From assembly GCA_024305405.1 (NCBI GenBank), contig JAKNDB010000064.1:248001-312000 (forward strand): a DNA stretch of 64,000 nucleotides, written 5' to 3'. This document shows, in pieces, positions 50,225 through 64,000 of the stretch. The first letter of the stretch is position 1. Each line of letters starts with the position of its first letter. Source of the DNA: Dirofilaria immitis. Lineage: Eukaryota; Nematoda; Chromadorea; Rhabditida; Onchocercidae. The notes under the pieces are model-generated. The model was not told the DNA's origin, ran no database searches, and saw nothing but the letters and a program-made list of their open reading frames with translations. A program made the position numbers and the translations under genes.

Positions 50225-51448
50225 ATGAAGTTGAATTCAGAGCGAAACTGTAAGCTCAATATTCGATGCATTCTGCTGCTTCATCTGTTTTTGGTTATTA
50301 TTTATTTCATGTACTAATATTAAAATCATTATTAATTAATATTTAAATGATAATCAATAAGCAAATGGCTATTATTATTATTATTGTTATTTAATTTTTA
50401 GTATGAAAAATTGAAAATATAAATCTCGCAGAATTTCTGATATTAAAGAGCGAGCAGGAAGAATGATAGATAAAACGAATATGATAATTTTTGATAATTT
50501 CAAATGAATTTTAATTTTATTATCAAATTTTGATTTATTTGAGAAAGAGCAGCAAAACAACGATTACAAGAATTAGACGTCGAAAAACGTGAACCTATTT
50601 TATTACGATGTTCAGCATTACAACATGCACATTTTATTCAAATAAATTCATTGCAACGGATATCTGAAATTTGCAAAGTTTTGCATGAATTTCATAGTAC
50701 TGTAAGTTTATATATATTATATTAATATTAATATTAATTTATTTTCTTTTCTCCTATTTTTATCATTGCAATAAATACAATATCATTGATAGCTTATCAT
50801 TGTTATTTATATCATTATCATTGTCATCAATATCCTTATCTTAGGTATCACAATCAATATTTCGCTTAGTTCCATCGTTAGAGGTAGATGAATGGCCAGT
50901 AAGATATGTTTTTGCATCAGTAAGTGGTCGTTCAACATCTATTCAACTTCGCTCTTCACCAATATATACCATCCATTGGCATGTCATTTCAGCAAGCAAA
51001 AAGTAAAGGTAATAATTAATTAATGCAGATGCTCATCTCGAATTCATTAAATAGATGCCTAATCATTAAGAGATATCAGATTAGAAGTATCATCAAATAG
51101 ATATCTAATCACGTAGCGAATGATAAAAATCGTTGATAGTCAGAAATAATCATTGCAAAAATTTTTATCATTTATAAAAATTTCTTATATCATTAATAGC
51201 TGATAATTCATTCGTTTTAAATGCTATAATTATCGCTGGAATAAATATTTTCATATATTTTCGTTGAATTTATTAATTTCAATTTTTGCAAAATATTTTG
51301 AAACATTTATCAATCGTTTATCATATTATCATTTCATCTATCTATCTATCGATCTATTAAACATCATCATTTATTCTTTTTCATTCTTGCATTATTTGAA
51401 AAGATGAAAATAATAATAATAATAATGATGATAATAATAATGAATAAT

Positions 51449-51547
<99 letters not shown>

Positions 51548-52606
51548 GTGATGATGATGATGATTATATAATATATATAAGTAAATAAATAATAAAAATT
51601 TAATGATTTTTATTAGTGTAAAAATGAAGAGAATATAAAATATTGTATGTTATTTGCTCATTAAAATCAAAATTTAATGATTAGATATTTGAAATGAATT
51701 AAGAATGCATTATTAGCTATAAGCTATTCTAATCAAATATTACAAACTTATTTTATTATAATAATTAGCATAAACAAAATTCAAAACATTTCAATTTTTC
51801 TTTCTTTCTTTCTTTCTAAACAAAATTTTTTTCATTTAGATAAAACATCGAACGATAGTTCCACTATCATCTGAATTAATCCTTCAACCAATGAAAGTTG
51901 AAATAGCTGAACGATGGCATATGAACTGGGAATATGTCATATATCGTATATCACACGGTATACATTTTGCTATCATGAAAAGTATCATTGATATGAATCC
52001 TCAACAGACAGTTATTTATATACGAGCACAAAAAGTTTATCCACGTCGATTTATACGATCTATTATTGCACCTATACAGGTATGTATCATTTTTAAACTA
52101 TTTGAAATATTCGTTAAAACAATTTTCATTCGTTACAATATGCAATTATTTAGTCATTTATCACTACAGTCTAATCAGTTATCATCTATTCATCTATTAC
52201 AGAAATCACTTTTTACTAATATTTTTTTTGAAAGTATTGTGAATGATAATTTTAATATGATAACATTTATAAATTTTATTCTTTTAAAATATTAAAAAAG
52301 TATTAGAATTAGTTGCATCATTTAACAAATAATTCAAATTATTTAATTTTAAATAAATAAATTTGTTAACAAAGTTTATGAGACAATTTGTTATAGAAAA
52401 AGAAAATTATCAAAGCATCAAAACCATATCCAATTACAATGTGTACTGTTGATCGAGGTGAACCATGTCATGTCAAAAGTATTAATATTCCTGATTATCG
52501 TAAATGTACTATCAATAATTATTATCCAACGTTTGAACATATTGACAATTGTTCATCTACTTCAACTCTAATTAAATGTAATTGTTATTATGATAAATTA
52601 AAGTAA
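50225..52606 (+). CDS. Unrecognised cysteine-containing protein, possibly membrane-anchored or secreted
   Basis: Secure exons: about 50544-50701, 50845-51002, 51840-52079, 52397-52606; about 254 residues. The N-terminal part is helical and charged (QRLQELDVEKREP). The middle has WPVRYVFASVSGRST and IAERWHMNWEYVIYRISHG. The last exon has about seven Cys (ITMCTVDRGEPCH, DYRKCTINNYY, NCSSTSTLIKCNCYY), as in a disulfide-bonded extracellular module. A possible first exon at 50225 encodes a basic start and a hydrophobic run (CILLLHLFLVIIYFM) like a signal anchor, but its phase to the next exon is unproven. Exon 2 needs one more A in the run at 50998-51002 to join exon 3 without a stop. AATAAA lies at 52784-52789. 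I do not recognise the family. Confidence 0.6.
51409..51570. repeat. (AAT)n microsatellite in an intron
   Basis: A long ATAATAATA tract with GAT interruptions at both ends, inside the intron 51003-51839. Confidence 0.95.
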
Positions 52607-55348: not shown

Positions 55349-55511
55349 TAGCGGGGAGCGCGAACGCAGCCCCAAACGCAAAAATTGTGCTGTTGGCTGA
55401 TCCCAGCTCGGGATAGCCACACGGGTCAACCAAACCCCAAGTGCAATGGTCAAGCCTCACCGTGGAGTTCCCGCCTTGTTGATCGCGAGATCCTCCCAGC
55501 CAGGTAAGTTT
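55349..55511 (-). ncRNA. U1: U1 spliceosomal snRNA
   Basis: RNA that recognises 5' splice sites in the spliceosome. On the minus strand the 5' end reads AAACTTACCTGG (complement at 55500-55511), the exact 5' splice-site-pairing sequence with the AAA start seen in nematodes. Then come a GC-rich stem I (GGCTGGGAGGATCTCGCGATC) region, the stem II loop ATTGCAC that binds U1A (55441-55447), an Sm site AATTTTTG (about 55377-55384) and the 3' stem-loop with GCTGCGTTCGCGC and four-C/four-G arms, ending near 55349. Length about 163 nt, against 164 in human U1. It stands out as a GC-rich island in AT-rich DNA. No open frame or splice context competes with this call. Confidence 0.95.
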
Positions 55512-56562
55512 ATGATCTTCTCCTTTCCATGGTATATCTATCTAGAGCTGCAATTATTGAGTGGCTTGCTGAATGTTATATTGCATTTGACAAATGAATG
55601 CAATATGTAGAGGGTATGGAGATAACGAGACGATGCACGCATATGCCTGTTTAAAAAAAAAAATCGCAAATGTCACTTCTTCTGTTACCCTTTACTCTCT
55701 CTGTGCCATTCCGTTGTTGAGCTGATAAGAGAAAGTCAAAGATTTATAAATTGTCGCTATGATAAAATCGCAAAATTCCAATTGCATGCATGCATGCATG
55801 TTTCGGATGGGAATCAATTAGATTAGTCAATCACCGCGATGCCCAAATCACTAATATATTACGCTAAAGCATTTTTGACTTTATGAAATCACTTTTTCAG
55901 GATCACGCCAGGTAGATGCCTATTACAGTATCCGGGTTTCTTATCCGGTCAACTCTTTTGTTAATATAATAAAAACTAGCCAAGTTCGCCATCTATTTTA
56001 TGGATAACATTCAGAGATGTACAGTTTCAGATCAGTATGAGGTTCCGAGAATGATTCGTCCTTATTTGTATCAGATATCTCAACTTGACCGAATATCTCG
56101 ATCATTTATATTATGTCGTTTTATATGATGAGATATCCCGATCATTTGATCAGGTATCCTTTTCACATTTAGAAAAAACAACCCTAGTTGATTTGTTCTA
56201 TCTGGAACCGAATTGCACAACAAATTATATCTTCAAATTTACTTGAAGCATTTATGGCTTTTAGGCCATTTTGTTGTATACATATATATATTCTCGAGGA
56301 AATAATATGCATCATATAAAACAGAAAAAACAAGCTTCTTCCCAAATTTCTAAAATATTCTTGACAAATCTTATCTATCATTCAGGATTAATTCGAATGA
56401 TTCATGGTTATGATATTTATCTGTCTAATTATCTCCTGATATTTATTACTATTTACGACGAATAAAATTTATTTGAAATTATTAGCAATACATTGAAACG
56501 ATACAGTAATATTTAAAAAATAAATTCATCCCATGTCCATTATTGATATCATTGAAAATTTA
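55512..56562. other. U1 upstream region and spacer
   Basis: U1 promoter elements (PSE) should lie within about 100 bases above 55511, but I cannot point to one with confidence. The GCATGCAT run at about 55785-55800 is a small dyad. From about 56345 the sequence resembles the 3' flank of the peptide gene at 57927-58421. Confidence 0.45.
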
Positions 56563-56981
56563 TCAATGAAATTTTGCTGGCACTGCTGTACAATCACATC
56601 CTCCTTATAACTATCACAATTTGGCTTATCATCTATCACACAATGCCAATATTTGCGACAATTTCTTTTACACAGTTGCGTCCTATAAATTTTAATAATT
56701 TATATTATCAATTTTCAGTATTATGAAATCAAAATCATAGTTGAAATTTTAAAAAAATAATCGTTTATAATTGTTACATTGAAAAGTTCAAATTTAAATT
56801 TGAAACTTATATTTTTAGTTATTTTTAAAGAGAAATTTTTATCTATGCCATGTATTTATCAAATTATTTGCATTCAAATTGATAAGATAAGAAATGATAA
56901 AACATACTGTCCATTTACTACATTCGAGATAGCAATGACAATTATGGCAATTAGCAAAAATAATTTAGTTATTTTCAACAT
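56563..56981 (-). CDS. Small secreted cysteine-rich peptide, copy A
   Basis: Exons 56908-56981 and 56563-56682, with a phase-2 intron. Exon 1 encodes a signal peptide (MLKITKLFLLIAIIVIAISN) ending VVNG. Exon 2 encodes the mature part, with six Cys spaced CX3CX5CX7CX6CXC (CKRNCRKYWHC, KPNC, then CDC). One A appears to be missing at 56605-56606: with it the frame reads GGCDC like its paralogue and stops after about 64 residues; without it the last two Cys are lost and the frame runs about 15 codons further. Role not known. The CX3C..C..C..CXC order resembles the core of ASABF-type nematode defensins but lacks their first and last Cys. It shares flanks with copy B by tandem duplication. Confidence 0.7.
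56877..56900. promoter_or_regulatory. GATA-site cluster in peptide A intron
   Basis: ATTGATAAGATAAGAAATGA followed by TAA, 8-31 bases inside the intron. Equivalent clusters occur at the same place in copies B and C. GATA factors such as ELT-2 drive intestinal genes in C. elegans; use here is inferred. Confidence 0.45.
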
Positions 56982-57316
56982 ATCGCTGTTTGAAATTGAA
57001 CCAACAATTTCAAAGCCTAAAATAAAATTTCCAGACAGATTGCAACAAAAAAAATGAACCAATTATTTGCTAAGCCAAGTAACCAACCACAAAACTTTTG
57101 CCAACAACAAAATGACTGAGAATATTCTGAAAGATCGATCATTTCATACCATCAAATAAAATTTGCATTTTATTAAAATGTAAATAAATTTTATTTCATT
57201 CCTTATAAAGAAAGGTATTAGCGAGGAGGAGAGGATATATTTATTTTCATTAAAATAAAATACAGTTGGGATAGATTTAATAATATTTAAAATATGTGTA
57301 TCAGATAGAATAGAAA

Positions 57317-57864
57317 TCAATCATCTCTATTCTATCTGATACACAACATCTTTTTGGGACTTTTTTTTCTGATAGTATTATCAGAAAAATTATGATATAA
57401 AATAAAATTACCTGTTTACTTTTAATGATATTTAAATTAAGTTTCATTCCCTAAATAATAAATAATATCATCCCATAAATGTTATTACTATTCGTAATCA
57501 TTGAGAAATGAAAATTATTCGAGAAATTCGCAGATAAAATTTACTTTTTAAATTAAAAAGTTATAAGTCATTTTTTACAAAAAATTTTTCAATAAACGAA
57601 ATTTCTTGCAAAATTAATTTTTTCAGAATTTTATTTGAATTATTAGCTCATTTGATGTGATGAAGTTTATATGAGAATTACTGCATTTTGAATATGATTT
57701 TACATCATTTCCTTGAGACAAATAGTCTTATGTATTATTATCATTTAGAGTAGTTGGAGAATAGATAGTAAACAAGTGATTTTATATCATTACTTTTTGA
57801 TAATATTATTATAGGAAAAATCCCAAAAAGATGTTGTGTATGAGATAGAATAGAGATGATTGAT
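57317..57864. mobile_element. Foldback or MITE-like element with about 100-bp inverted ends
   Basis: Left arm 57317-57422 and right arm 57768-57864 are inverted copies: ACAACATCTTTTTGGGA at 57342-57358 matches TCCCAAAAAGATGTTGT near 57819-57835. The similarity continues inward through a TGATATAAAAT block and GTTTAC. The ~345-bp interior has no open frame. The outer left end has an extra 14-bp hairpin (ATCAGATAGAATAG with CTATTCTATCTGAT). No transposase. Target-site duplications were not resolved. Confidence 0.65.
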
Positions 57865-57926
57865 CACTTCTAAAATATCCTTGATAGGCTTTATCTACTA
57901 TTTCCAACTTTTTAAATCTCTGCTAG

Positions 57927-58421
57927 CTATCTGAATATGATGTGATTGTTTGTGTTTGCAATAAGATGAAATTTATTCGAAATTATCACATAGATATCGA
58001 TTATCACTCTTTTATCGATTCTATTACAATCGTTAGCTAATATATTATTTTTTTTCGTTTTCACTGCCGAACAATCACAGCCTCCTTGATGACTATCACA
58101 ATTTGATTGCTCATTTATCACACATTGCCAAAAATTACGACAATTCCTTCTGCACAATGCCGTCCTGTAAATTTCAATAAATCATATTATCAATTAATAG
58201 TATTATTATAAAATCCAAAAGTAACAATTTGAAATTTAGAAAAATAAACAATTTTCAAGAGAAGAAAAAACAAATGTTTATTTTTATTTATTATTCTCAA
58301 ATTGAATTATTTAAATTGATAAGATAAGATAAGATAAAACATACTGTCGTCCAAAAATTACATTCGGCATAGCGATAACAATTACAATAATTAGCACAAA
58401 CAATTTCACTGTTTTCAACAT
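57927..58421 (-). CDS. Small secreted cysteine-rich peptide, copy B
   Basis: Exons 58345-58421 and 57927-58164, with a phase-2 intron at the same place as in copy A. The signal peptide is MLKTVKLFVLIIVIVIAMPN followed by VIFGR. The mature part has CRRNCRNFWQC, then C, then GGCDC, with the same six-Cys spacing. As read it continues 39 residues beyond the A-run at 58048-58055, to 104 residues. One more A in that run of eight would create an immediate TAA, giving about 65 residues and matching copy A; I think that is the true end. Promoter, intron and 3' flank are similar to copy A, so the two arose by tandem duplication. Function unknown; extracellular. Confidence 0.72.
58315..58340. promoter_or_regulatory. 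GATA-site cluster in peptide B intron
   Basis: ATTGATAAGATAAGATAAGA then TAAAAC: at least three overlapping GATAAG sites right after the exon 1 donor. Confidence 0.5.
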
Positions 58422-58934
58422 ATCGTCGTTTGATATTACGCTAACAATTTCAAAGCTAAAATAAAAATTTTGAAATGAATTATAAACAAAACAAAACAAA
58501 AAAATAACCAATCACTTCGTTGAGCGGAAACCGAACAACCAATCATAAAACTTTCATTAACATACAATAACAGAGAATGGTTTAAAAAGAAAAAAACGGC
58601 CAAACTATTTCATATCGTCTGTTAAATTTGCATTTTATTAAAATATAAATGTATAATAGCAATATGTAAATAAATTATTAAAAAATGAATTAATCATCTA
58701 TTCTTATCGATAAATATAAATTTATTCATATTGTTTAGCAAAATGTAAATTTAACAAATTGTATAAAATGATTAATCATTTAAGATATTTTTAATTATCT
58801 CATGTTGTTGGCACATTTTGCTTGATCAATTGCTTGATCTAATAAATAATTGGCCTATCTTTGATTAGGGCCTATCTTGAAATTTTATTTTATCCTCTAA
58901 ATTAGTTGTTAATGTTAATTGACGACAGAGCAAT

Positions 58935-59385
58935 ATGCTAAAAATAATCAAATTATTTCTATTAATAATTTTAATTATCATCGTTATATCTAATGTAATG
59001 GGAAAACGGTATATTTTTTTTTATCAATTCTTATCTTATCAATTTGATAAATACATAATACAAATAAACTGCTTGTTTTTTTACAACTAAAAAATTTACA
59101 TATTTTAAAAAAAATTTTAAAATTTAAAATTTTATTTTTAGCTTTTGAATGCAAAAATTAGGAATATTTGTTTTTTTTTTCAAATTTTAACTATTATTAT
59201 TATTGTATTTCAATAAATATGAATTATTTATTGAAATTTATAGAAAAGCATGGTGCAGAAATAAATGCATTATTTATTTTCGATGTTTGGAAAATGAAAA
59301 GCCATACTGTAAAAATTATACAGGAAATTGTATTTGCCCATTTTTCCCATCAAATTTTTTTCTCGTAAACGAAAGAGACCAATGA
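58935..59385 (+). CDS. Small secreted cysteine-rich peptide, copy C (inverted)
   Basis: Exons 58935-59008 and 59244-59385, on the opposite strand to copies A and B but with the same phase-2 intron. The signal peptide MLKIIKLFLLIILIIIVISN is followed by VMGKR. The mature part has CRNKCIIYFRC, KPYC, then CIC, with identical spacing CX3CX5CX7CX6CXC. It ends after a short hydrophobic and charged tail (VNERDQ); 71 residues. It has no frameshift, so it fixes the true frame of the family. Mature residues other than Cys and a few Lys/Pro/Asn have diverged, while the signal peptide is conserved. It could be an antimicrobial peptide or a host-directed effector; neither is shown. Confidence 0.75.
59021..59050. 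promoter_or_regulatory. GATA-site cluster in peptide C intron
   Basis: TTATCAATTCTTATCTTATC then AATTTGATAA. It has the same composition and position as in copies A and B, though this gene is on the other strand. Confidence 0.5.
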
Positions 59386-59872
59386 ATGCATAATATATTA
59401 ATTATTTCATGCCAATAAATATTCCTAGTGATAATGATAATTATTGATAATTATTGGTTTTCATTTCAGAATATATCAGTTTGAATAAAAATAAATATTT
59501 TGCAAAATGAGAAATTCTTTCTAATCATTTATTAGAAATATTAAATATGAAGCATTAAATAACAATAACAATAATGACAAAAAACAATTTATTTGATCAT
59601 TCTTATTTATCATTTCTTATCTTTTATTCTTTCACTTTGCTGACGATTATAATTATCGAGATTGATAGGATTAAAGATTGGCGTCTCATTTGTATATTTA
59701 TTTGACATAATCATTATCAGAATTACTGAAAAAGTTGAATAATATTTTCATACATATTCAGGAAGGAATCAGAATAAATTCTGGAATCTATATGATATGA
59801 TATATTGTAGATGATGAATTTTGAATAAAATAATTCATTCATATAAGAAATTATTCTTATCAGTTTGTGGCA
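59386..59872. other. Spacer between converging genes
   Basis: AT-rich region between the ends of peptide C and the kringle gene. It should hold both 3' UTRs. No other feature was seen. Confidence 0.5.
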
Positions 59873-62800
59873 TTATAACGAAGCATTTAAAAGAGATTTG
59901 ATAAAATAATAAAATAAGTTGAAAGATTGATTTAATAATTTCCGCATAACTTTACCGATAACAAAAGATAACAGGGCAATGCCTAACAATAATAGTGAAG
60001 CAAGCATTACATCACTTGAAACTTTACATCACCGATCCCGGTGACATTTTGTAACACATTTGTTTGTTCATTATCATTATCCTCTTCCTGAAAAAAATGT
60101 TTCAATAATTCGAAAAGATCAATCAAACAATTGATTCGTTTGATGTTTTAATAAGAGATACAGTACTATTTATCAATTTCATTAATTATTAATTATTTAT
60201 ATCCGGCAATATCAGAAAAAAAACCCCGATACCTCATCAGTAATTTTACTTCCTCCACATTTTTCTTCCATACCACAGCGATTTTCATCAATGATCGATG
60301 GCTCATGTATTGATCGATTACATGGACAATCAATAAAGCATGCTTGATATTCCACCTTATAGAGTAATCAAGAAAAAATTGGAAATAATATATAATTTAT
60401 TTAACAATTTCAAAATATCATATAATACTTATCTAATCTTAAAAATATAATTCAAATGATTTCAAATTTTATAAAAATTAATTAAGTAATTCATTTCATA
60501 TTATAATTTCATTTCATATTATAATCTAATATAACCTTTCGTCGATATTCAATTTCAATGAAACAACCAGCACCAATTGTAAATACATGATGATAGAGCG
60601 GATATTGTTGTGCCATATCAATTCGAGCCCTTTTATCAATACCACGTAGAAAATCTCCAAGAGTAAAGCATCGATTGCTAAATTAAATTTTTCATTTTTA
60701 TCTTTTATAAAATAATACCGAATTACTATTCAATATTTAATTAATTAAGAATAATGAAATTAAAAATTAAATATGTATGAAGTAATCTAATGTTGTAATA
60801 ACAGAATCTTAAGTTATCTTTGTAGAATGATAAGATAATCATTATATTGACAAAAATTCTGTTAAGCTATCTTTGTAGAATGATAAGATAATCATTATAT
60901 TGACAAAAATTCTGTTATCTTTGTAGAATGATAAGATAATCATTATATCGGCAAAAATACATGATAAATGCTACTTCTATTTATTTAACGTAATCTATTC
61001 GATTACTAACCTAACCATCAAACGACCTTTTGAATGAGCAAATACATTTTTTATCCTTGGCTTTTTATTTTTGTCATATAATATTTCATCACGAAATATT
61101 TTCAAATATATCGTATCATTCTGAATTTTAAAACAGAAATGAATTTTTTTCTTAAGAATCAAATTTTATTACTTCATATTTAAAAAAAAAAATAAAATTC
61201 TCAATGATTGCCAGAAGATCATCAATGATTGCCAGAAGATCATCAGTGATTGCCAGAAGATCATCAATGATTTCTCATTTTTTTTTAATAGAAGTAAAGG
61301 ATATGGAGATCATAGAATCATAAAATTCTGTATATTATCAATTTTTAAAACCAAACTGTTTTCATATTCTTCATCTTTTGTTGATGCAGAAGAATTTCAT
61401 ATGCGAAAAAAGGTGATATGCAATTTTCACCACGGAAATTATAGTTTCGCGGTCCATAATATGGGAAACGTCGACGTATCGGGCTTACTTGTGAAACCGG
61501 CCAACAAGGTATCTAAAAATGATCTTGAAATGTTGGATTAATTTGTTTGCTTTCCTTCCGATATATATATATATATATTTATCGTGATCTTTTCAGATAC
61601 GTAACTGCTGACATTGTTATCTTCACATGCCAAAAACATGGTCTCCAACGTGTAAAAAGTGGTCCGCCATCTCCTCGAAATGTCCGTTCACGATCCATGC
61701 GATCGGCACCGGCCTCTTTGAATAATTCAGACAACCTGCACGAGAAATTTCATTTTGAATTTTACTCAGTTTCGAAATCTATTTATATTTAAATTTAGCA
61801 ATAAAATTGACATTAGCACTTTCCATTTTCCAGAAGAATTAATCAATCATTTCTGATTTGATAAACGATAAGTTTGGAAGAACGAAATGGAAAATATTTC
61901 ATTTGATAAATTTACGCCTTTCGAAATCAATTAATATTTTCATTCTGAAACTTTATAAGTTTTAAATTGATTAACAAGATATCGCAATACTGCTATTAAT
62001 ATTAATTAAATTTCTGAAATCTTGTAGTAACCAATATCGTTGTTTCGGGAATGGTTCATCAATATCCGCATATGTCCATGGACCAGCAATTCGTGTTTGT
62101 AGTCCTGTCTGATAGCAACGTAAACGTGTTGAAATATCACGAGGATAATTTCGAATATAATCATTAAAATATGTTGGTATAAACATTGGCCTAATTTTAG
62201 AATCAATACGTATAACACTTGATACATCAATAATATCACTCAAATCTAAATTATTAATATTTAATCAATAAATAATGAAATAAAGTTTTAATTTAATGCA
62301 TATTTCATTTATTTGAATATCATTTACCTTAATTAATGAAGAAATCGAGAAATGAATTCAAATTAGAATTCATTACTCGATTCAAAATAAATATGAAACT
62401 TATAGAAATATTATCAAAATGTAAAAGATAATTTAACTAATAGGCTTATTGATAAATGGCATAAAATGATAAAACGATAATAAAGCTTAATTTATTGACG
62501 TGAAAGACGTGATGATTCAGCGGATGAATTGTATACCTTTAATCGATTCACTATTTGTTTCAATAGTTGGCGCACCATTGAACAATAATGATGATGGTAA
62601 CATATATGGAAAAACATTTTTGCAAGACAAAATTCTGGATGATTGTATGATTCACATTGCTTGAAACATGCTTCTCGTCGAATTCGAAATTCACTCTAAA
62701 GATGTAAAATAAAATTTTATGCATGAGAAGCTAAATCATTGATTGATTCATAGATTTACTAATTCAATCAATATTGATATATTATAATGGTCAGAAGATT

Positions 62801-63490
62801 AAAAACAACCTGATATACTATTTAAATATTGGATCGTATATAATTTAGGGTTAACCTTTGACCCTTTGAATTGGCTGCTTTTTTAAAATACTAAATGCTA
62901 ATTTTTCTAATAAACTTTTTTAAATGCCAACCATTACAAAACACCATGGTCCCATATGCCAATCATTCGGATTACGACAGTAATTTTCCAACGAATGCAT
63001 TCCACTTGATAATTTAGTTGGACCATATCTTATAGATGGACCAAAATGACTACTAAAATCAGTCGCTTGAAAAGTTGAATTTATTTCATCCCAACGTAAA
63101 CAACTTTTACCACTGAAAAATGCAATGATAAAAATTCATCATAAAAATATATGCCTTACCTTATTCATCATTAACTCTTAATTTATCAATTTTATTATCT
63201 ACGAAATTTAATTATATCACTATGTTGTTAACAAAAAAAAAAATTAATTTAAGAAAATTAAAACTAACGAAAATGAAACAGATTGAAATCCACGATACCA
63301 TGACATACGATCAATTGATTTTCTACAACTTATCCTATGATCAATGATATTCACATTGCATGTACTAATAAAATATTTCCCATTAATTAATTTCAAGCAA
63401 ATATTTTGTCGAAATTTAGGCCGTTTATAGCAAATTGGTGTAGTAATATCAATGTTAAACATTTGAAAGATATGTTCAGTGGTAGAATTC
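59873..63490 (-). CDS. Kringle-containing single-pass membrane protein (5' end missing or unresolved)
   Basis: Ten exons with closing phases: 63269-63490, 62932-63112, about 62509-62695, 62032-62245, 61627-61735, 61357-61512, 61011-61120, 60536-60677, 60233-60355, 59873-60087; about 552 residues visible. Exon 2 has a kringle signature (GKSCLRWDEIN, then LENYCRNPNDW and GPWCF). Further Cys pairs lie in exon 3 (REACFKQCES), exon 5-6 (WRPCFWHIPCW), exon 8 and exon 9 (ACFIDCPCNRS). The last exon has a membrane segment (MLASLLLLGIALLSFVIGKV) and about 25 cytoplasmic residues, with no kinase. One A is missing at 60016-60017. Kringles in animals occur in ROR kinases and blood proteases, but here neither a kinase nor a protease follows. 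The remaining domains are unrecognised. The start is probably upstream, perhaps beyond the window. The exon 3 donor has two equal options (low end 62509 or 62500). Confidence 0.72.
60817..60956. repeat. Tandem repeat, about 50-bp unit, 3 copies, in an intron
   Basis: TCTTTGTAGAATGATAAGAT followed by AATCATTATATTGACAAAAA at 60817, 60870 and 60918. The spacing is 53 and 48 because of a small insertion. Confidence 0.9.
61200..61271. repeat. 24-bp tandem repeat, 3 copies, in an intron
   Basis: ATCAATGATTGCCAGAAG repeated every 24 bases with one substitution. Confidence 0.9.
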
Positions 63491-64000
63491 CTACAAGAAG
63501 AAATGTTCAAAAATTGAAATAACATTGTTTATTGTATTTCAATTTATTTAATTCATACAGTATAACATTAACTTTTTGCAAACTATTCTGCCGTAAACAT
63601 GGCTTTACGTCATTTATCTGAGGTAAATGACTCTGACGTAAGTTCTATCATCGTTCAGAGAAGTTACAGTACGCAAGTAACATTGTATCATCAGTAGTAT
63701 GAAGCGTATGTAATCTTTAAATCTGATCAATTAATTCTCTTAGGAAGAAAACATAAGTTACTAGGCCTATTATTCTTTCTTCTTTAAAAGTTAACCCTTG
63801 ACCTCATATTCATTTTCAAAATTTGTCAAATTAAAAAAGTGAAAACTAAAAGTGAACATCTACAGGCAGAAGATTTTCTGATATTCTTAAAACAAAATGG
63901 TGAAATTTCAAAAAAAGAAATAAATATAGGATTATCAATAGGTTGTTATCATTAACCGTTCCAAACATCCCACGCTGCTTATCTCTAGTTTGCTTATCTT
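63491..64000. other. Unresolved region upstream of the kringle gene exons
   Basis: The minus-strand frame of the first listed exon stays open up to an ATG at about 63525, but a good acceptor (CTTCTTGTAG) separates them, so I place the exon start at 63490. No signal-peptide exon is identified before the window ends. Confidence 0.4.

Follow-up and report, generated by a model that had tools for sequence, protein, structure and literature searches.

Does the heartworm Dirofilaria immitis, a filarial nematode, encode defensin-like peptides? The question is raised by a cluster of three small genes, A, B and C, in a 64,000-nucleotide stretch of its genome (the window, whose numbering is used throughout), which sits in contig JAKNDB010000064.1 of an assembly of 86.7 Mb in 65 contigs; sequence patterns were counted over 264 kb. 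The initial annotation described the cluster as a family of secreted peptides with six identically spaced cysteines (Cys), related in Cys arrangement to the ASABF-type defensins of nematodes. The three are very probably genuine genes for secreted peptides. We tentatively read them, with a confidence slightly short of even, as disulfide-rich heartworm peptides that are perhaps expressed in the gut and may be defensin-like in action. They appear defensin-like in their Cys framework and are not demonstrated defensins.

The cluster consists of three homologous two-exon genes, with A and B in tandem on the minus strand and C beside B on the plus strand. The leader exon comprises 24–25 codons plus 2 nucleotides in each gene, exon 2 holds the Cys domain, and all three introns are GT-AG introns of phase 2 in the same position, as had been claimed. 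By inspection, the leader has a basic start, a hydrophobic run and a G ahead of the likely cleavage point. Gene A is made up of a leader exon (56908..56981; 24 codons plus 2 nucleotides), an intron of 225 bp (56683..56907) and exon 2 (56526..56682), which carries the first four Cys in frame and has its in-frame stop at the 56526 end; an AATAAA signal lies downstream (56468..56473, minus strand). In gene B, the leader exon (58345..58421; 25 codons plus 2 nucleotides) is followed by a 180-bp intron (58165..58344) and by an exon 2 that encodes the six-Cys mature domain and a long tail (57927..58164), with an AATAAA inside the open frame (57972..57977, minus strand). Gene C, a complete 71-residue model and the only clean one among the three, has a leader exon (58935..59008), a 235-bp intron (59009..59243), an exon 2 with the six-Cys mature domain and the stop codon (59244..59385), and an AATAAA 29 nucleotides past the stop (59414..59419, plus strand). 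A and C are inverted copies with 67% DNA identity across about 0.5 kb (E 1.2e-26). The homology reaches beyond the coding sequence, the intron pairs being 69–74% identical compared to shuffled means of 53–55%. Exon 2 of gene C is less similar (59% to A and 61% to B; the best of 30 B–C shuffles gave 60%). Some 35 nucleotides ahead of the ATG of A and B (56982–57030 and 58422–58470), an acceptor-like run ending in TTTTAG can be seen by eye, possibly a trans-splice acceptor or the acceptor of an intron in the 5' untranslated region.

The feature that defines the mature domains is the arrangement CX3CX5CX7CX6CXC, which is in frame in B (58071..58154, minus strand) and C (59254..59337, plus strand) only. 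Of its five exact occurrences in the 264 kb, those of B and C have an open frame and six Cys, no more and no fewer; the other three fall within a repeat of Cys codons and contain stops. None appeared in 60 first-order Markov resamples; the six-Cys pattern is beyond chance. In gene A, Cys 1–4 are in one frame and Cys 5–6 in another, with the frame shift between Cys 4 and 5, so the spacing said to be identical in all three genes is so in B and C, and in A it is split over two frames. The end originally given to the cluster, 56563, is the stop of this second frame of A and not its in-frame stop. Likewise, the stated length of 64–71 residues suits C (71) and not B, whose first stop comes only after 104 codons, past the polyadenylation signal. 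Because this stop falls beyond the consensus AATAAA, the 3' end of B is uncertain.

The state of gene A is illuminated by a public record, P0001, a 65-residue D. immitis protein of the same family as A, B and C. It is the sole match of gene B in the protein database (the one candidate retrieved) and, among 14 candidates at E <= 10, again the sole match of a profile of B, C and P0001. By inspection, the P0001 leader is exon 1 of gene B, and its mature part joins the two pieces of exon 2 of gene A without a break. Thus, intact copies of the A domain exist, and the break in A is a polymorphism or an assembly error. The exons of a neighbouring gene show no frame break across a 254-residue query, which argues that the bases in this region are not generally poor and makes a real polymorphism in A possible. 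P0001 itself could be a gene model in which two exons were skipped, a transcript that is truly chimeric or a deletion allele. One D. immitis genome paper reports annotation by BRAKER3 with RNA-seq (PMC12562366), and our guess is that P0001 stems from that genome. The name of the record, 'Merozoite surface protein', is spurious and may echo a chance likeness to a piece of MSP1. We rejected this identity, given that the MSP1 chains in PDB reach only E 0.57 and 1.9 over profile positions 39–63; EGF and MSP1 yielded no significant match to the profile of B, C and P0001.

The condition of A and B could also signify that the family is decaying, with A a pseudogene, the 3' end of B being lost, and C the sole gene still working, if any is. 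The frame break in A and the open frame of B beyond its polyadenylation signal would fit such decay, whereas the unbroken A domain of P0001, the retention of the Cys while other sites vary, a signal exon in which the ratio of nonsynonymous to synonymous substitution rates (dN/dS) stays under 1 in all pairs, and the room that the unbroken neighbour exons leave for a real polymorphism all speak against it. We consider decay very unlikely.

An exact precedent exists for the order of the Cys. In the ten-Cys reference array of CS-alpha-beta peptides, ABFs are described as occupying C2–C6 and C8–C10, and ASABF-6Cys-alpha of Ascaris as having C3–C6, C8 and C9 only, with a suggested rearrangement of the disulfides (PMC5116183). 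The CX3C-C-C-CXC order of the heartworm peptides is identical to that of ASABF-6Cys-alpha, so the initial description, an ASABF without its first and last Cys, stands as far as Cys order is concerned (PMC5116183). This likeness was drawn by inspection and covers the described Cys order alone. ASABF-6Cys-alpha is reported from Ascaris suum, with one putative ortholog in Parascaris univalens, that is, from nematodes of clade III, to which the filariae also belong (PMC10506718). However, a 2023 survey of the phylum supports its confinement to Ascaridida and finds clade III CS-alpha-beta genes in Ascaridoidea and Oxyuroidea only (PMC10506718), and the heartworm peptides are unmatched by the ABF profile, PF16839. 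The main text of this survey makes no mention of Dirofilaria, and the genomes it covers may not include D. immitis (PMC10506718). The eight-Cys nematode ABFs and mollusc-nematode defensins (MND) covered by PF16839 are small secreted peptides with CX3C and CXC, and the products of B and C share these motifs and are probably secreted too; in contrast, the heartworm peptides have six Cys. Atypical defensin-like peptides of Zymoseptoria, in which the Cys framework and the modelled fold are reported to have changed and the gene structure to have been kept (PMC5234102), are a precedent only, and no sequence relation to the heartworm peptides is claimed.

Under the reading that we favour, exon 1 would encode a signal peptide and exon 2 a short mature peptide that is cationic in C and P0001 (charge at pH 7 of +4.7 and +3.9, respectively). 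The CX3C segment is likely helical and would be followed by the C-terminal CXC; bonds between the two pairs would pin the helix, as in the cystine-stabilised helix (CSH) of CS-alpha-beta peptides, which is plausible, and the two middle Cys would be bonded to each other. Transcription in the intestine would depend on an ELT-2-type GATA factor, and the peptide, released into the gut lumen or body fluid, would bind microbial membranes in the manner of a defensin. Of these steps, we are least sure of the defensin-like function, which we hold to be somewhat doubtful.

The role of a GATA factor is suggested by a tandem GATA element of 17 nucleotides, which reads TCTTATCTTATCAATTT in the coding direction and is found in the introns of A (56876..56892, minus strand), B (58313..58329, minus strand) and C (59029..59045, plus strand), where it starts 15, 15 and 20 nucleotides into the intron, respectively. 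There are no further copies of it on either strand of the 264 kb. The best 20-column block of the three-way alignment of the locus is the noncoding block with this element, in which 17 of the 20 columns are conserved. The element contains CTTATCAA, which fits both CTTATCAR, a motif that occurs 60 times in the 264 kb, and TCTTATC. CTTATCAR is described as the most significant motif in genes overexpressed in the Ascaris intestine and was matched to ELT-2, and TCTTATC is described as an intestine-enriched motif in Caenorhabditis elegans (PMC3916258), where ELT-2 is reported to both activate and repress defence genes (PMC10411582). The presence of a CTTATCAR-type element in the introns predicts intestinal expression of A, B and C.

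So far, the peptide family has been detected in D. immitis alone. As a control, we searched the same database with a gene from the same neighbourhood (50.5–52.6 kb), which returned 12 matches at E <= 0.001. The best of these was a D. immitis protein, 99% identical across all 254 query residues, and ten others came from Onchocerca volvulus, Loa loa, Wuchereria bancrofti, Acanthocheilonema viteae, Brugia malayi, Elaeophora elaphi, Thelazia callipaeda, Cercopithifilaria johnstoni, Brugia timori and Gongylonema pulchrum. Eight of these ten related species are filarioid. No homologue of the peptides was found in any of the ten in this database, which contains predicted proteins only, and gene prediction in other species can readily overlook small two-exon genes. 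Within the 264 kb, nothing but A, B and C rose above noise in a profile scan of open reading frames (ORFs) of at least 25 residues, the next-ranked ORF scoring 10.5 bits (E 0.18); with a looser Cys pattern, simple repeats dominated the matches listed. Searches of the D. immitis genome itself barely detect the known copies: the protein search with C lists B at E 0.116, with A absent from the list, and the search with exon 1 lists C and A and not B. Therefore, distant members may exist elsewhere. Two further ORFs were discarded as family members: the Cys-rich ORF at 52.4–52.6 kb, which belongs to P0002, a conserved filarial protein of 295 residues, and an ORF at 60.2 kb, which, from its position and strand, seems to be part of the neighbouring kringle gene. 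The suggestion that the family is undescribed holds as far as it could be traced: no description of these small, probably secreted, Cys-rich nematode peptides was found among the titles and abstract openings listed from an open-licence library.

A secreted peptide found in a single parasite could instead be an effector directed at the host and acting on its channels, proteases or immune cells. That the peptides were not found in the ten other species would suit a host-specific factor, as would the conserved leader and the fast-changing mature residues. The proportion of nonsynonymous differences (pN) between C and A or B is 0.14–0.18 in the signal and 0.48–0.49 at mature non-Cys sites, and in both pairs the mature value exceeds the signal value in every one of 5000 bootstrap draws. 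Point estimates of dN/dS at mature non-Cys sites are 1.23 (A–C), 1.17 (B–C) and 0.47 (A–B), compared to 0.07, 0.22 and 0.56, respectively, in the signal. Because these estimates come from 20–33 codons with high dS (and, for gene A, from the codons up to the frame shift only), positive selection is unproven. A conserved leader combined with a fast-evolving mature part is, however, also usual in immune peptides. Further, the intronic element points to the intestine rather than to a secretory gland, and no toxin or inhibitor family gives a match over its cut-off. We regard a host-directed effector as the main rival to the defensin-like reading, though unlikely.

Several lines of evidence weigh against the reading of A, B and C as gut-expressed, defensin-like peptides. 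At the level of the genes, one of the three copies is broken, the frame of A in this assembly stopping without Cys 5–6, the 3' end of B is unclear, and the B peptide is weakly charged (+0.8 at pH 7 over 36 residues). The contrast between a conserved leader and a diverged mature part, claimed for the family, is borne out for C against A or B and is lacking between A and B (pN 0.22 and 0.20). When the Cys codons are included, dN/dS of the mature part drops to 0.57 (A–C), 0.65 (B–C) and 0.32 (A–B), with no sign of positive selection. As for the GATA element, its peak of conservation is equalled in 648 of 20,000 permutations of intron columns and in 74 of 5000 permutations of the whole locus, so conservation alone is modest evidence; clusters of at least three WGATAR within 30 nucleotides are common in the 264 kb (34 compared to 0–3 in each of 20 Markov resamples), though this arrangement is not.

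The tests of family and fold count on the same side. No described family was reached over its cut-off in the profile searches: Pfam at E <= 10 has nothing for B or P0001, and for gene C it offers only Fer4_5, CRA and SHP, rejected as sub-threshold matches mostly on the leader, with none for the mature part. PF16839 does not match the cluster proteins at E <= 10, and its best match in the whole genome lies on another contig (15.1 bits, cut-off 27), with none at the cluster, in a search made without an ABF-holding genome as a positive control. The insect defensin profile, PF01097, similarly peaks on another contig (17.1 bits, cut-off 20.4; no positive-control genome was searched); we rejected this family given that the mature part has no Cys before CX3C and that no profile match over the cut-off occurs at the locus. 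Lepto_8Cys from NCBIfam (18.4 bits, cut-off 34, with P0001 alone among the three proteins) and ShK (PF01549; 50 genome matches at E <= 0.01, none on the contig of the cluster) were likewise dismissed. AlphaFold models, built with three sequences, gave a predicted local distance difference test score (pLDDT) of 45.5 for gene C, which is unusable, and for gene B (pLDDT 67.1) a helix over residues 2–17 that spans Cys 1–3, with no strands. A PDB sequence search with gene C found nothing, and Foldseek with the B model found no match in the PDB library. The CSH motif, CX3C followed by a C-terminal CXC, is present in B, C and P0001, whereas the cores of B and C have six Cys and not the eight Cys and four disulfides of ABF/MND. 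The gamma-core GXC at C6 of the array is absent, Cys 4 being preceded by SN, PN or PY, and G-x-C is found in the alignment at Cys 5 only. With PF16839 unmatched, the gamma-core misplaced, no strands predicted (at low-to-middling confidence) and no PDB match, membership in the ABF family is not demonstrated; Cys order alone does not establish homology.

The lack of fold and family matches in these searches, and a helix in the B model across Cys 1–3 that is unlike CS-alpha-beta, would also suit a secreted peptide of another kind, reproductive, signalling or structural in the gut lumen, with a fold of its own and a function unrelated to defensins. The combination of CX3C with a terminal CXC and the positive net charge of C and P0001 are in keeping with a defensive role, and we judge a peptide of another kind to be quite unlikely.

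The cluster is located between a U1 spliceosomal RNA gene (55351–55511, minus strand; 121 bits) and a minus-strand gene with a kringle-like exon (59900–63500), which is arranged tail to tail with gene C. The kringle exon ORF scores 32.1 bits with PF00051, just below the cut-off of 34.3, and a possible C-terminal membrane segment is visible by eye in this gene. P0002, the D. immitis record for the conserved filarial gene with the Cys-rich end (50500–52606), is named 'UPF0045 protein', yet no Pfam family matches it over the cut-off. Between A and B, there is an inverted repeat (57316–57364 and 57816–57864) with 49-nucleotide arms that are 96% complementary and 451 nucleotides apart. The whole-genome search reported no second copy of this repeat, so a repeated mobile element is unsupported.

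In its boldest form, which we hold to be decidedly unlikely, the defensin-like reading would be that filariae, although reported to be without CS-alpha-beta peptides, have kept or evolved anew a defensin with six Cys and a changed disulfide pattern, the two middle Cys being bonded to each other. A GATA element would drive it in the heartworm gut, where it would hold microbes or the Wolbachia load in check, and leader swapping between the tandem copies, of the kind that P0001 would suggest, would add diversity. If the heartworm peptides were of the ASABF-6Cys-alpha type, they would contradict the picture that the survey gives for filariae (PMC10506718). As a Cys-rich family that is misnamed in the record and invisible to profiles, they show how surveys could undercount fast-evolving peptides. 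They also make up a small, testable set, so far found in heartworm alone, with one clean gene, C, for questions of gut defence, Wolbachia control and species-specific diagnosis.

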